From Planctomycetota bacterium (GTDB taxonomy: Bacteria; Planctomycetota; Planctomycetia; Pirellulales; Pirellulaceae): a stretch of 34,264 bases of DNA. Shown here piece after piece: positions 8,305-11,156 of this stretch. Position 1 is the first letter of the stretch, and the number at the start of each line of letters is the position of its first letter. The notes beneath the pieces are model-generated. The model did not search any database and was not told where the DNA came from. It saw nothing but the letters and a program-made list of their open reading frames with translations. The DNA lies in assembly GCA_029979005.1 (NCBI GenBank), contig JAPOIJ010000038.1, forward strand, positions 1-34,264. Reading direction: 5' to 3'. The translations under genes and the position numbers were made by a program.

Positions 8305-8706
8305 ATGAATGATTCAACTCGCAAGAACCGATTGCTGGTAGATTGGAAACTTCAGGGTTCGTTGTGTCTCCGGATTTCGTTTTATTGGCTCCTATGCCAA
8401 ACAACACTAGTCGCGACGATGCTTGGCTTCCTTGCACTGGAAGCTCAGGCCGATCTGCAGCCGTATGATGGAACGGCTTCACCATGGCGTTTCATTATGC
8501 CAGCGATCGTCGGTTCGAGTGTGTTCTTACCGCTTGTGTTGTTGGATAATTTAAGAATGTCAAATCGAATAGCTCAGACTTTAAGTCGATTTCGGAGTAA
8601 AGTTAATCAGCTTTACGAACGTCAACAAGTTGAGGGTGCCGTGGATGCTTCGGCTGATTGCGGAGATGAAATGACCGATGTCCATCAGGGGGTTGTTTCA
8701 TCATAA
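8305..8706 (+). CDS. Small two-helix HAMP-like membrane protein (planctomycete type)
   Basis: From the ATG at 8305 (GTG at 8290 is an alternative adding five residues) the product has 133 residues. A basic N-terminus (RKNRLLVDWKLQGSLCLRI) leads into helix 1 (about 20-47), a periplasmic loop with PYDGTASPWRF, helix 2 (about 62-81, ending LVLLDNLRMSNRI) and a cytoplasmic segment, AQTLSRFRSKVNQLYERQ. Helix, loop, helix, then SNR-x(5)-RFR is the start of a HAMP linker without any output domain. I recall similar orphan proteins in planctomycetes near TadE/TadG genes, and here the Tad operon follows after a riboswitch. It may be a membrane signalling adaptor (inference). The C-terminal 30 residues are acidic and low in structure. 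Confidence 0.7.
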   Translation: MNDSTRKNRLLVDWKLQGSLCLRISFYWLLCQTTLVATMLGFLALEAQADLQPYDGTASPWRFIMPAIVGSSVFLPLVLLDNLRMSNRIAQTLSRFRSKVNQLYERQQVEGAVDASADCGDEMTDVHQGVVSS

Positions 8707-8747
8707 GGTCGTTTGCCACGTTGTCTTGATGACGGAGACAATTACAA

Positions 8748-8761
8748 AAAATTATAATTTT
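8748..8761. promoter_or_regulatory. 14-bp perfect AT palindrome upstream of the riboswitch
   Basis: AAAATTATAATTTT is its own reverse complement. It lies 41 nt after the HAMP-like gene and about 90 nt before the aptamer core, in an AT-rich stretch that must contain the promoter of the riboswitch-controlled operon. It could be a regulator-binding site or part of the promoter. AT-rich palindromes of this length also arise by chance, so this is a position to note rather than a call. Confidence 0.25.
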
Positions 8762-8852
8762 AAACGTTCTGCTTAATTCATAAATTTACTGTCAGTGCGT
8801 CGATTGAGAGCAACTAAATAAACAAATACTACTTGGAGCTCGTTTGAGTTTT

Positions 8853-8927
8853 GAGATAAAGGCAAACCGATCGTGAGGTCGGGACGCAAAGCCATGGGTC
8901 TCCGGATGAGAGATCGCCAGGTTACCT
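8853..8927 (+). ncRNA. Cyclic-di-GMP-I (GEMM-I) riboswitch aptamer
   Basis: The conserved core of the class is present in order: GGCAAACC (8861-8868), GGGACGCAAAGCC (8881-8893) and GGTTACC (8920-8926). P2 is CCGATC / GGTCGG closed by a GTGA tetraloop (8867-8882), the GNRA loop that docks in this family. P3 includes GGTCTC (8896-8901) pairing with GAGATC (8909-8914, one G-U), followed by GCC. The base two positions before CAAACC is G, as in c-di-GMP binders, whereas variants that sense cyclic AMP-GMP have A at the equivalent position if my alignment is right. P1 is weak. The first start codon of the TadE/TadE/TadG operon lies 53 nt downstream. No hairpin plus T-run is visible in between, so control of translation at the GAGGGG before 8980 seems more likely than termination (inference). 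Confidence 0.92.
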
Positions 8928-8979
8928 GAAAATAAAAACAGAATTGTGTGCGATTCGTTCGTCCGCTAGAGGGGCTTCT

Positions 8980-9543
8980 ATGTATTGCTTAAGTAAAAAC
9001 GTACTCGTTAGCCGCAGTCAGGTTTGGGAATTCCGAATCGGACTAGCGTTAAGACGTCATATTTCTAGCGTTAGCAAATTCTTTAACACATCTCGTGTTA
9101 CTGATAATTTCATCAATCGCAGCAACGTCTCCAGTGTTCGTCGATTGCGTCGTTGTGGTGTTGCCACGATCGAGTTTGCTCTTGTCGCGCCTTTTATTCT
9201 GTTCATCATTTTTGGTGCGGTTGAATTTGCACGCATGATGATGGTCAAGCAGGCTTTGACTAACGCAGCGCGAGAAGGCTGCCGGCACGCGACGTTGGTA
9301 ACGACCCAATCTTCGGATGACTCTGAATCTTTTGTGCGTGAAATTCTAAAGCCAACGATTGCAAAAAGTAACGACTCAGAAATTGTAACGATAAATATTG
9401 AGCCAAGCTTCACGGTAACCCCTGAGTCCGGTGATGAAATCGTCATGGCAATTGAGGTGGCTTGCTCTGATATCACTTGGTTGCCAGAGATGTTCCTTTG
9501 TGGAGCGAAAATTCGCGGCTCTGCTTCAATGAGTCGTGAGTGA
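8980..9543 (+). CDS. TadE-like pseudopilin/assembly protein, first of the operon
   Basis: TadE-family proteins are minor pseudopilin-like components of the Tad (Flp pilus) export system in the inner membrane. From the ATG at 8980, preceded by GAGGGG with a 5-nt spacer, the protein has 187 residues; the TTG at 8944 is an alternative start. An unusually long basic N-terminus (about 60 residues) precedes the hallmark RRCGVATIEFALVAPFILF, where G60 followed by Glu at +5 fits a prepilin-peptidase site. Next come the membrane helix and FARMMMVKQALTNAAREGCR, the typical TadE helix. The rest is a beta-rich periplasmic domain. It is the first gene after the riboswitch, and its stop overlaps a GTG triplet just upstream of the next gene. 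No Tad ATPase or secretin genes are in the window. Confidence 0.85.
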   Translation: MYCLSKNVLVSRSQVWEFRIGLALRRHISSVSKFFNTSRVTDNFINRSNVSSVRRLRRCGVATIEFALVAPFILFIIFGAVEFARMMMVKQALTNAAREGCRHATLVTTQSSDDSESFVREILKPTIAKSNDSEIVTINIEPSFTVTPESGDEIVMAIEVACSDITWLPEMFLCGAKIRGSASMSRE

Positions 9544-9554
9544 TTGGAGAGACT

Positions 9555-10037
9555 ATGAAAAATTATTCATTTAATCGTTCTCGTAGGAACGTGCGTTTCA
9601 AGAGAAACCGGCGAGCAGCTGCGACGGTTGAAACAGCGATGCTAATTCCTTTGCTAATTTTGGTATCGCTTGGCGCGACTGACGTGGCCCAATATATCAA
9701 TCTTGCTCAGTCAATCACTAATGCAGCTCGACATGGCGCCAGGTTTGCAGCGAAGGATTCAACGCTGACTGTCGGCCAGGTTGAAGACGAAGTTGGGCGT
9801 GTATTTGCCGATCTTTTTCCGCAGTGCTCTGAAGAAGATTTTGAAACCGCCTTGGTGATATCTGTGACTAATTTGGACGGTGAACCGGTTAGTTCTGGAT
9901 CGCTGGATACGATCGACTCGGGCGACCCTCTCTGTGTGCAATTGCAATTTGACTTTGACGCAATTCGCTGGCTAAAAGGCTGGGAATATTTTGGGTTTGA
10001 GGTGGTTAGTTCCGAAGCGATTGGGAGGAGAGAGTAA
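9555..10037 (+). CDS. TadE-like pseudopilin/assembly protein, second of the operon
   Basis: The product has 160 residues from the ATG at 9555, chosen because GGAGAG (9546-9551) sits just upstream; the GTG at 9540, overlapping the previous stop, is less likely. After a basic leader (RSRRNVRFKRNRR) comes AAATVETAMLIPLLILVSLG with the TadE-type Glu in the helix start, then LAQSITNAARHGARFAAK, the same helix pattern as in the preceding gene. The remaining 100 residues form the periplasmic part. The two TadE paralogues differ a lot in sequence, so they are probably distinct subunits and not a recent duplication. The stop codon abuts the ATG of the TadG-like gene, so translation is likely coupled. 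Confidence 0.85.
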   Translation: MKNYSFNRSRRNVRFKRNRRAAATVETAMLIPLLILVSLGATDVAQYINLAQSITNAARHGARFAAKDSTLTVGQVEDEVGRVFADLFPQCSEEDFETALVISVTNLDGEPVSSGSLDTIDSGDPLCVQLQFDFDAIRWLKGWEYFGFEVVSSEAIGRRE

Positions 10038-11156
10038 ATGTCGAGGATTGGAAAAGCCGTTGCTGGGCGGCCAGGTCAAAGCCAACGTGTGCGTTCGGGC
10101 CGAGCTCGTCGAGGTAATGCCGTTGTTTTTGTGGCAATGATGCTACCTGTGATGTGCGGTTTTATTGCTCTGGCAGTAGATTATGGATTTTTGCTTTATA
10201 TTCGGGCTGATCTGCAACGTTCGGCGGATCACGCCGTTCTGGCTGCGGTGAGAGATTTGGAGCCGAGTGAAGATGGGAGTCAGAATCTCAATAATGTGCG
10301 TGCGAAGTTGAGGGAATTTGCTGAGCTAAATGCCGGGCATGGTATTTCAATTTTGGACGAGGATATTCAGATCGGTCGTTTCAATCCTGTCACGGTTTAT
10401 ACGGAATTCGAGCTTCTAAACGATGGGATTTACGATACGGTGGTGCTGACTTTACGGCGAGACGATTTAGCTAACTCATCGGTGTCGCTGTTCTTTGCCA
10501 AGCTGTTTGGAAACCAGACAACGGACGTTTCGGTTACCAGTACTGCAGTTTTGCAAAAGGCAAAACTCTTGACTGAAGGCGCCGATATTCTGCCGGTAGG
10601 GATTCCGATCTCAGTTTGGGATGTGCAGGCGGAAGAATCGATTTGGTCGATCTACGGTAACGGGAGGATAGAAGATGAATTCGGAAATGAGATCCCCGGG
10701 AACTGGGGAACCGTCAACGTCGGTTCTGATAGTAATTCGACGTCGGAATTGGTGGATCAAATTAACGTCGGTCTGAGGCAAGAGGATTTGGATAGTCTCG
10801 CCGAAAACGGCAGGATATCAACTAACGAATACATAGATAGTCAGGACCAAATTACGCTTTCCGGTGACCCCGGTTTTTCAGCAGGAATCAAATCCGCTGT
10901 GCTTGCGGCGCATGGGGAGAGTAAGTTAGTGCCGTTATTTGATCACCTGGAGGGTTCGGGCGGTAACTTGACTTTTGACATCGTTGGTTGGGGCGTCGTG
11001 CAGGTTGTCAATTCGTCTTGGAATGGAAGTAAAAACTCATCAATCACTGTTCGAAAATCGTATTTGTATGACGGGGATTTAAGGCCCCATCCGGATCTAA
11101 GCGAAGTTGATAATCTAATTAAGAATGCTTTTACCTCACCGGTGCTTGTTGATTAG
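10038..11156 (+). CDS. TadG-like pilus assembly protein
   Basis: The 372-residue product begins at the ATG directly after the previous stop, with a strong GGGAGGAG (10023-10030) ahead of it. The basic leader RVRSGRARRGNAVVFVAMML enters one membrane helix (about 27-50), followed by DYGFLLYIRADLQRSADHAV and LAAVRDL, the N-terminal pattern of TadG-like proteins (helix, Asp, then the R-x-x-L-Q-x-A-x-D-A region). The rest is a large extracytoplasmic domain of beta character with several Asn/Ser-rich stretches and no motif I can name. I see no clear von Willebrand MIDAS motif, which some TadG proteins have. It closes the riboswitch-led operon; a stem-loop follows the stop. Confidence 0.8.
   Translation: MSRIGKAVAGRPGQSQRVRSGRARRGNAVVFVAMMLPVMCGFIALAVDYGFLLYIRADLQRSADHAVLAAVRDLEPSEDGSQNLNNVRAKLREFAELNAGHGISILDEDIQIGRFNPVTVYTEFELLNDGIYDTVVLTLRRDDLANSSVSLFFAKLFGNQTTDVSVTSTAVLQKAKLLTEGADILPVGIPISVWDVQAEESIWSIYGNGRIEDEFGNEIPGNWGTVNVGSDSNSTSELVDQINVGLRQEDLDSLAENGRISTNEYIDSQDQITLSGDPGFSAGIKSAVLAAHGESKLVPLFDHLEGSGGNLTFDIVGWGVVQVVNSSWNGSKNSSITVRKSYLYDGDLRPHPDLSEVDNLIKNAFTSPVLVD

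Follow-up and report, generated by a model that had tools for sequence, protein, structure and literature searches.

The natural c-AMP-GMP (GEMM-Ib) riboswitches share the fold of the c-di-GMP-I riboswitches and carry an A at position 20. A related subclass, c-di-GMP-I-GGC, represented by the Rfam model RF03167, reportedly has its source in Weinberg et al. (2017, NAR). A full-text search by the name of this subclass returned passages which merely list or use the model, and no binding test was found in them. The c-di-GMP-I riboswitch Vc2 (RF01051) is described in the accessible passages of the literature as a translational OFF switch with P1 as its key element (PMC9262584) and as contacting its ligand through G20, A47 and C92 (PMC4744006); its G20A mutant has been described as binding cGAMP (PMC7288161, accessible part). 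According to the accessible part of a review (PMC7266159), riboswitch aptamers usually come first and the expression platform trails. In a literature search that covered few subscription papers, and is therefore weak evidence of absence, no upstream expression platform in riboswitches was found, and no title pointed to a c-di-GMP riboswitch with an upstream anti-Shine-Dalgarno platform.

The riboswitch described here appears to have such a leading strand. It is located in the window, by which we mean the whole analysed stretch of 34,264 nt (contig JAPOIJ010000038.1), which belongs to a 5.06-Mb draft genome of a marine planctomycete in 322 contigs. The aptamer and the genes that follow it, together with a promoter-like site, are positioned as follows.

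8729 to 8758, forward strand: promoter-like site ATGACG-18-TATAAT (10 of 12, consensus match only)
8852 to 8930, forward strand: c-di-GMP-I-GGC riboswitch aptamer (RF03167 68.2 bits, RF01051 66.0 bits; G20 = 8861, C92 = 8925)
8980 to 9543, forward strand: TadE-like protein 1 (Pfam TadE, 61 bits, cut-off 22.9)
9540 to 10037, forward strand: TadE-like protein 2 (Pfam TadE, 39.5 bits)
10038 to 11156, forward strand: TadG-like (Tad domain) protein (Pfam Tad (TadE/G-like), 40.6 bits, cut-off 22.3)

When the whole window was searched with cmscan, RF03167 was the single match above the gathering cut-off (cut-off 59 bits, E 2.8e-14), with model positions 1-80 of 80 aligned, and the aptamer agrees with the model in sequence and structure over all 80 positions. 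The initial annotation had proposed a GEMM-I core, and RF01051 indeed matches at 8851-8929 well above its cut-off of 35; RF03167 prevails in clan competition, so that the best model is the GGC subclass rather than GEMM-I in general. The aptamer itself is thus a further member of an already known class. It shares with Vc2 the P1-P2-P3 junction, G20, C92 and the GNRA-capped P2, which had been recognized from the outset and is capped by GUGA in the RF03167 alignment. Residues are numbered as in Vc2 on the basis of this alignment and the residue list in the accessible part of PMC7288161 (G14 = 8855, G20 = 8861, C92 = 8925). On the same basis, the joining strand before GG reads AUAAA in the window and CACAG in Vc2. 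Where c-AMP-GMP riboswitches carry A20, the window has G; among 138 loci, G20 is present in 137 and C92 in all. Because the Vc2 contacts G20 and C92 are kept and the genome holds seven GGDEF matches, c-di-GMP is the likely ligand. The sole A20 aptamer among the 138 loci (L106, G180:C9) is situated before a Flp pilin and might reflect a change of ligand.

The 3' end of the aptamer lies 49 nt from the start codon of the first TadE gene. This ATG was chosen by eye, the longest open frame starting at TTG 8944; an ATG is found at the matching position in eight relatives (L141-L147, L178). The genes directly downstream are, by Pfam, TadE, TadE and Tad, as had been proposed at first sight, and are of the TadE/TadG pseudopilin type of a Tad pilus operon. 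The named relatives encoding the TadE protein are metagenome-assembled genomes labelled Mariniblastus, Pirellulaceae and Planctomycetaceae. In the window, the operon has no Flp pilin, prepilin peptidase or CpaB. The genome's only Flp pilin match is located on another contig (G000:C151:10648-10779, L140), where by eye a prepilin-peptidase-like frame and then the start of a CpaB-like frame follow; no c-di-GMP-I-GGC riboswitch at this pilin was among the matches listed in the genome search. Likewise, no second site in the genome was found among the 150 of 488 first-look candidates scored for RF03167 or the 150 of 427 scored for RF01051. The initial annotation saw no terminator hairpin before the start codon, and none was found in 8700-9100.

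The leader contains four strands which can pair in alternative ways. If the promoter-like site is used, strand A would be within the transcript.

8832 to 8841, forward strand: strand A, CUUGGAGCUC, a putative anti-Shine-Dalgarno strand and the 5' arm of hairpin A:B
8842 to 8845, forward strand: loop GUUU of hairpin A:B, which can pair with AAAC 8936-8939 once P1 forms
8846 to 8855, forward strand: strand B, GAGUUUUGAG, the 3' arm of A:B and also the 5' strand of P1 (G14 = 8855)
8926 to 8932, forward strand: strand C, CUGAAAA, the 3' strand of P1
8936 to 8939, forward strand: AAAC, which pairs with loop GUUU in the P1-formed fold
8972 to 8978, forward strand: strand D, GGGCUUC, overlapping the Shine-Dalgarno sequence GAGGGG; partner of 8835-8841

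A:B is a predicted 10-bp hairpin that shares strand B with P1 and strand A with A:D. It excludes both helices, since B is the 5' strand of P1 and A is the partner of D. P1, which had been called weak, extends 5' and 3' beyond the Rfam model and is not weak when its flanks are counted. The Shine-Dalgarno sequence, earlier placed at about 8970-8975, is present at exactly 8969-8974, followed by ATG at 8980. An alternative helix hiding GAGGGG had also been suspected; such a helix exists over part of the motif, with its partner at 8835-8841, upstream of the aptamer. The leader thus has, as a property of its sequence and not of its function, a helix at the ribosome-binding site whose formation is tied to that of an aptamer helix, by competition or by dependence. 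The suggestion that the platform acts on translation agrees with its position at this site and with the lack of a terminator; that the platform lies partly upstream of the aptamer had escaped notice. An aptamer and mutually exclusive helices are common to the typical riboswitch and the window, but here the putative anti-Shine-Dalgarno strand leads instead of trailing. Strand A and hairpin A:B lie outside RF03167, which covers the aptamer alone, and annotation restricted to the 3' side of aptamers would overlook leading platforms. The distinguishing feature is the putative masking strand 5' of the sensor, unlike the usual layout.

Folding of single sequences did not provide the hiding helix in a usable form, as the resulting fold was mixed and had P3 broken, and a comparison of relatives was needed. 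In the comparisons made here, same or near-identical leaders were dropped (L170-L176 against L141-L147, L060 against L147, L216 against L178, L230 against L026, and L032 and L209 against L001). Nine distinct window-type leaders, few in number and related, were compared first. Conservation in these nine begins about 20 nt 5' of the aptamer. The sequences of A:B, B:C and A:D vary in the set but remain matched. A:B is paired in 90 of 90 cells, a value reached by none of 500 shuffles, and slid versions of the hairpin are just 14-58% paired. Two-sided changes occur at five of the ten A:B pairs, all five contributed by L178, the most distant leader, which differs at most positions and yet has the hairpin complete. 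For B:C (six pairs), 96.3% of the cells are paired with two-sided changes at three pairs; for GUUU:AAAC (four pairs) the values are 91.7% and two pairs, as exemplified by GUUG/CAAC in L142. Together, the five two-sided pairs of these helices stem from L178 and L142, and 0 of 500 shuffles matched the whole structure. A:D is paired in 78 of 81 cells, that is, at eight or nine of nine positions in every one of the nine leaders, with two-sided changes at two of the nine. An alignment of 36 matches, which was fitted to the model and so favours the structure, has A:B paired in 86.5% of the cells and two-sided changes at nine of ten pairs. We assign A:B to the window type and some relatives, not to all leaders, because in a shuffle test for upstream hairpins at 137 loci p<=0.05 was obtained at 12 of 53 other loci and at 3 of 84 Flp-class loci. 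The upstream hairpin as a property of the Flp class was rejected on the latter count.

When the duplex of A with D was compared to shuffles in single leaders, the outcome was mixed (p 0.001 to 0.32; 0.31 and 0.15 for the window), and a comparison across leaders was therefore made. A covariance model built from the nine leaders matches 119 of the 241 family genomes at E<=0.001, many of them probably by the aptamer alone. From its matches and earlier loci, 33 leaders in four context groups were assembled, their start codons being picked by eye after the sequences had been viewed; L038, L049, L220, L225, L233 and L235, in which the start or the gene is unclear, were left out, no CheY-like frame opens in L234 and L236, and the frames of L217- and L218+ run for 36 codons only. 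The upstream 24 nt, comprising A, the loop and part of B, so that the energies cover more than A:D, pair with the leader's own Shine-Dalgarno region at -14.3 kcal/mol and with those of other leaders at -10.3 kcal/mol (0 of 20000 permutations). Within groups, this difference was found for the TadE leaders (10 leaders, 4 of 20000) and the CheY-like leaders (11 leaders, 5 of 20000); the seven TadG-like leaders (2288 of 20000) and five miscellaneous leaders (8052 of 20000) gave no such support. Examples of matched strands are GGGACUCU with AGAGUCCC in L232, GAGACUCU with AGAGUCUC in L219 and GGGUCUCU with AGAGACC in L237. In a first test of complementarity between upstream and downstream regions, the Flp leaders had given 0 in 10000 and the other leaders a weaker 0.0007.

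Taken together, the c-di-GMP-I-GGC riboswitch probably controls translation of the TadE-TadE-TadG operon through a four-strand switch in which high c-di-GMP represses. In the absence of ligand, B (8846-8855) would hold A (8832-8841) in the local hairpin, so that P1 would be blocked and D (8972-8978) would not be held by A. Binding of c-di-GMP would stabilize the aptamer, B would then pair with C (8926-8932) as P1, and the released A could pair with D across the aptamer and hide the ribosome-binding site. High c-di-GMP is accordingly predicted to repress translation, making the element an OFF switch. The simple reading of the initial annotation, attachment when c-di-GMP is high, does not fit this predicted sign, which follows from the logic of the strands. 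Since transcription yields the regulatory strand ahead of the sensor, a small RNA would suffice for testing both the order of cotranscriptional folding and the sign of control.

Folding energies bear on this model in several ways. When the nine leaders were folded without coding sequence, seven of the minimum-energy structures contained A:D and two A:B, and the probability of A:D without ligand exceeded 0.5 in six; when the native aptamer is forced, A:D reaches a probability of 1.0 in all nine. The probability of the Shine-Dalgarno sequence being unpaired, computed without coding sequence, did not separate the A:B state from the aptamer state. Further runs included 45 nt of coding sequence and the best upstream hairpin as picked by a script (just 5 bp in L226). 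Here, the free ensemble differs by no more than 0.2 kcal/mol from that with A:B forced in seven of ten TadE leaders, including the window, and is more stable than the latter by 1.6, 2.4 and 3.4 kcal/mol in L145, L143 and L146, respectively. On average, A:B is favoured over the aptamer state by 4.1 kcal/mol in the TadE group, a margin such as a ligand-driven switch would need, with L143 and L146 having the aptamer state more stable; in the TadG-like group A:B is favoured by 7.8 kcal/mol. For the CheY-like leaders the balance is reversed, the aptamer state being favoured by an average of 2.6 kcal/mol even without ligand, and these computed energies speak against a purely thermodynamic switch there. 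Of the 32 leaders with an A:B hairpin, 24 have a higher cost of opening the ribosome-binding site when the aptamer is formed (6 of 10 TadE, 11 of 11 CheY-like, 5 of 7 TadG-like, 2 of 4 others). The window's own RNA shows the reverse, with 4.6 kcal/mol in the aptamer state and 5.9 kcal/mol in the A:B state, as do L141, L144 and L226. As the window's RNA opens slightly more easily in the aptamer state, the sign of control is something we infer from strand logic.

This reversal is also in line with the same parts working with the opposite sign, whereby the 5' strand of P3, AAGCC, would hide GGCUU without ligand and c-di-GMP would turn translation on. The A:B-forced fold of the window does pair GGCUU with AAGCC, so that this state is not clearly open, and the class includes on-switches such as Vc1, as stated in the accessible part of PMC4744006. 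However, AAGCC:GGCUU is, by eye, not kept in L143 and L145 (GGAGUUCC), whereas A:D is kept in nearly all cells of the nine-leader comparison, and the aptamer state still forms A:D; we consider an ON switch unlikely, albeit the most serious contender. It is also conceivable that A and D merely lengthen P1, with no switching by A:B and the site hidden by static, ligand-independent structure, as might be suggested by the predominance of A:D in the minimum-energy folds without coding sequence and by the mean stability of the aptamer state in the CheY-like group. Against this, A:B is complete throughout the nine leaders despite the divergence of L178, and most TadE leaders have an essentially A:B free ensemble once coding sequence is included; a purely static role appears a little less plausible still. 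Switching between the two folds in cells is an assumption of the four-strand model.

The remaining alternatives concern the ligand and the level of control. Another cyclic dinucleotide, e.g. 3',3'-cGAMP, might be bound, as the joining strand of the GGC subclass differs from that of Vc2 (the window has A at positions 15, 17 and 19), and the literature searched yielded no binding test of the subclass. G20 and C92 are kept, though, the genome has its GGDEF matches, and it is the G20A mutant of Vc2 that is described as binding cGAMP (PMC7288161, accessible part), all of which makes a different ligand improbable. Finally, transcription termination or Rho instead of translation would have room to act in the Flp leaders, which are longer and mostly have the pilin motif 200-330 nt past the aptamer, so that other platforms could be accommodated there. 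However, the upstream strand has its match in the Shine-Dalgarno region, as the comparison across leaders showed, and 8700-9100 of the window holds no terminator-like site; control by termination is thus very improbable, and repression of translation by c-di-GMP is the reading we retain.

The c-di-GMP-I-GGC riboswitch recurs among planctomycetes. Of 296 genomes from the order, 133 match RF03167 at E<=1e-3 and 104 exceed the cut-off; in the phylum, 126 of 392 match at E<=1e-8. In the genus, the aptamer is above the cut-off in 8 of 28 genomes, which are those with a TadE relative at least 59% identical to that of the window; a TadE relative of some kind is present at E<=1e-5 in 27 of the 28. The gene order TadE-TadE-TadG is found in all ten named GTDB loci of the operon and the riboswitch leader in eight of them. 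From the listed matches in the order, 131 loci, including the window and excluding the weakest listed matches, were examined. A frame of a Flp-pilin cluster is near the aptamer in about 84 of them (85 were counted, L003 wrongly, its motif being upstream of the aptamer), as judged by sequence motif and clustering and not by Pfam. Prepilin-peptidase-like frames accompany it in 72 and CpaB-like frames in 50, as named by eye; the other 46 loci include Tad-domain, CheY-like and unrelated frames. It may be hypothesized, with roughly even chances, that the c-di-GMP-I-GGC riboswitches of planctomycetes in this family commonly have a leading platform, a 5' hairpin whose 3' arm is both a Shine-Dalgarno decoy and the 5' strand of P1. 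Such hairpins would precede TadE, TadG-associated and CheY-like genes, with sequences that drift but stay matched, while in Flp leaders the 5' strand would pair downstream as a different platform. The distribution suggests that in many planctomycetes Tad-type pilus and CheY-like genes are under c-di-GMP control.

In the Flp leaders, the 5' flank of the aptamer contains a strand (GGCCUGC and variants) whose complement is found 50-210 nt past the aptamer. This outer helix was analysed in 84 distinct Flp-class loci, e.g. L013, L023, L019, L067 and L078. The 57 leaders with a non-consensus upstream arm have better own than mismatched pairs (19.2 and 16.9, 0 of 20000); for the 27 with the consensus arm, own pairs are not better (13857 of 20000), and 23 of these 27 have GCAGGCC downstream. 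No Rfam family besides RF03167 was found on the 18 Flp-class loci searched.

Several other gene contexts were observed. By eye, a CheY-like response regulator follows the leader in L026, L219, L222, L228, L229, L232, L237, L123 and L080, and CheW-like frames, also named by eye, follow in L026, L038, L080 and L123, which suggests, from gene neighbourhood, that c-di-GMP may also act on a chemosensory system. In L217 (G349:C84) and L218 (G350:C98), two riboswitches of the class face away from one another on opposite strands, with about 0.8 kb between them, and a complementary Shine-Dalgarno-like stretch accompanies each; at both loci, one of the two frames opens 36 codons only. Some distant planctomycetes of family f63 (e.g. 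G519, G591 and G684) have at least 11 RF03167 matches each, all candidates scored being matched. In L028, L029, L033, L055 and L063, frames that by eye resemble RecJ are found roughly 0.4-1 kb downstream of the aptamer, as is, in L029, a frame that by eye resembles ribosomal protein L33.
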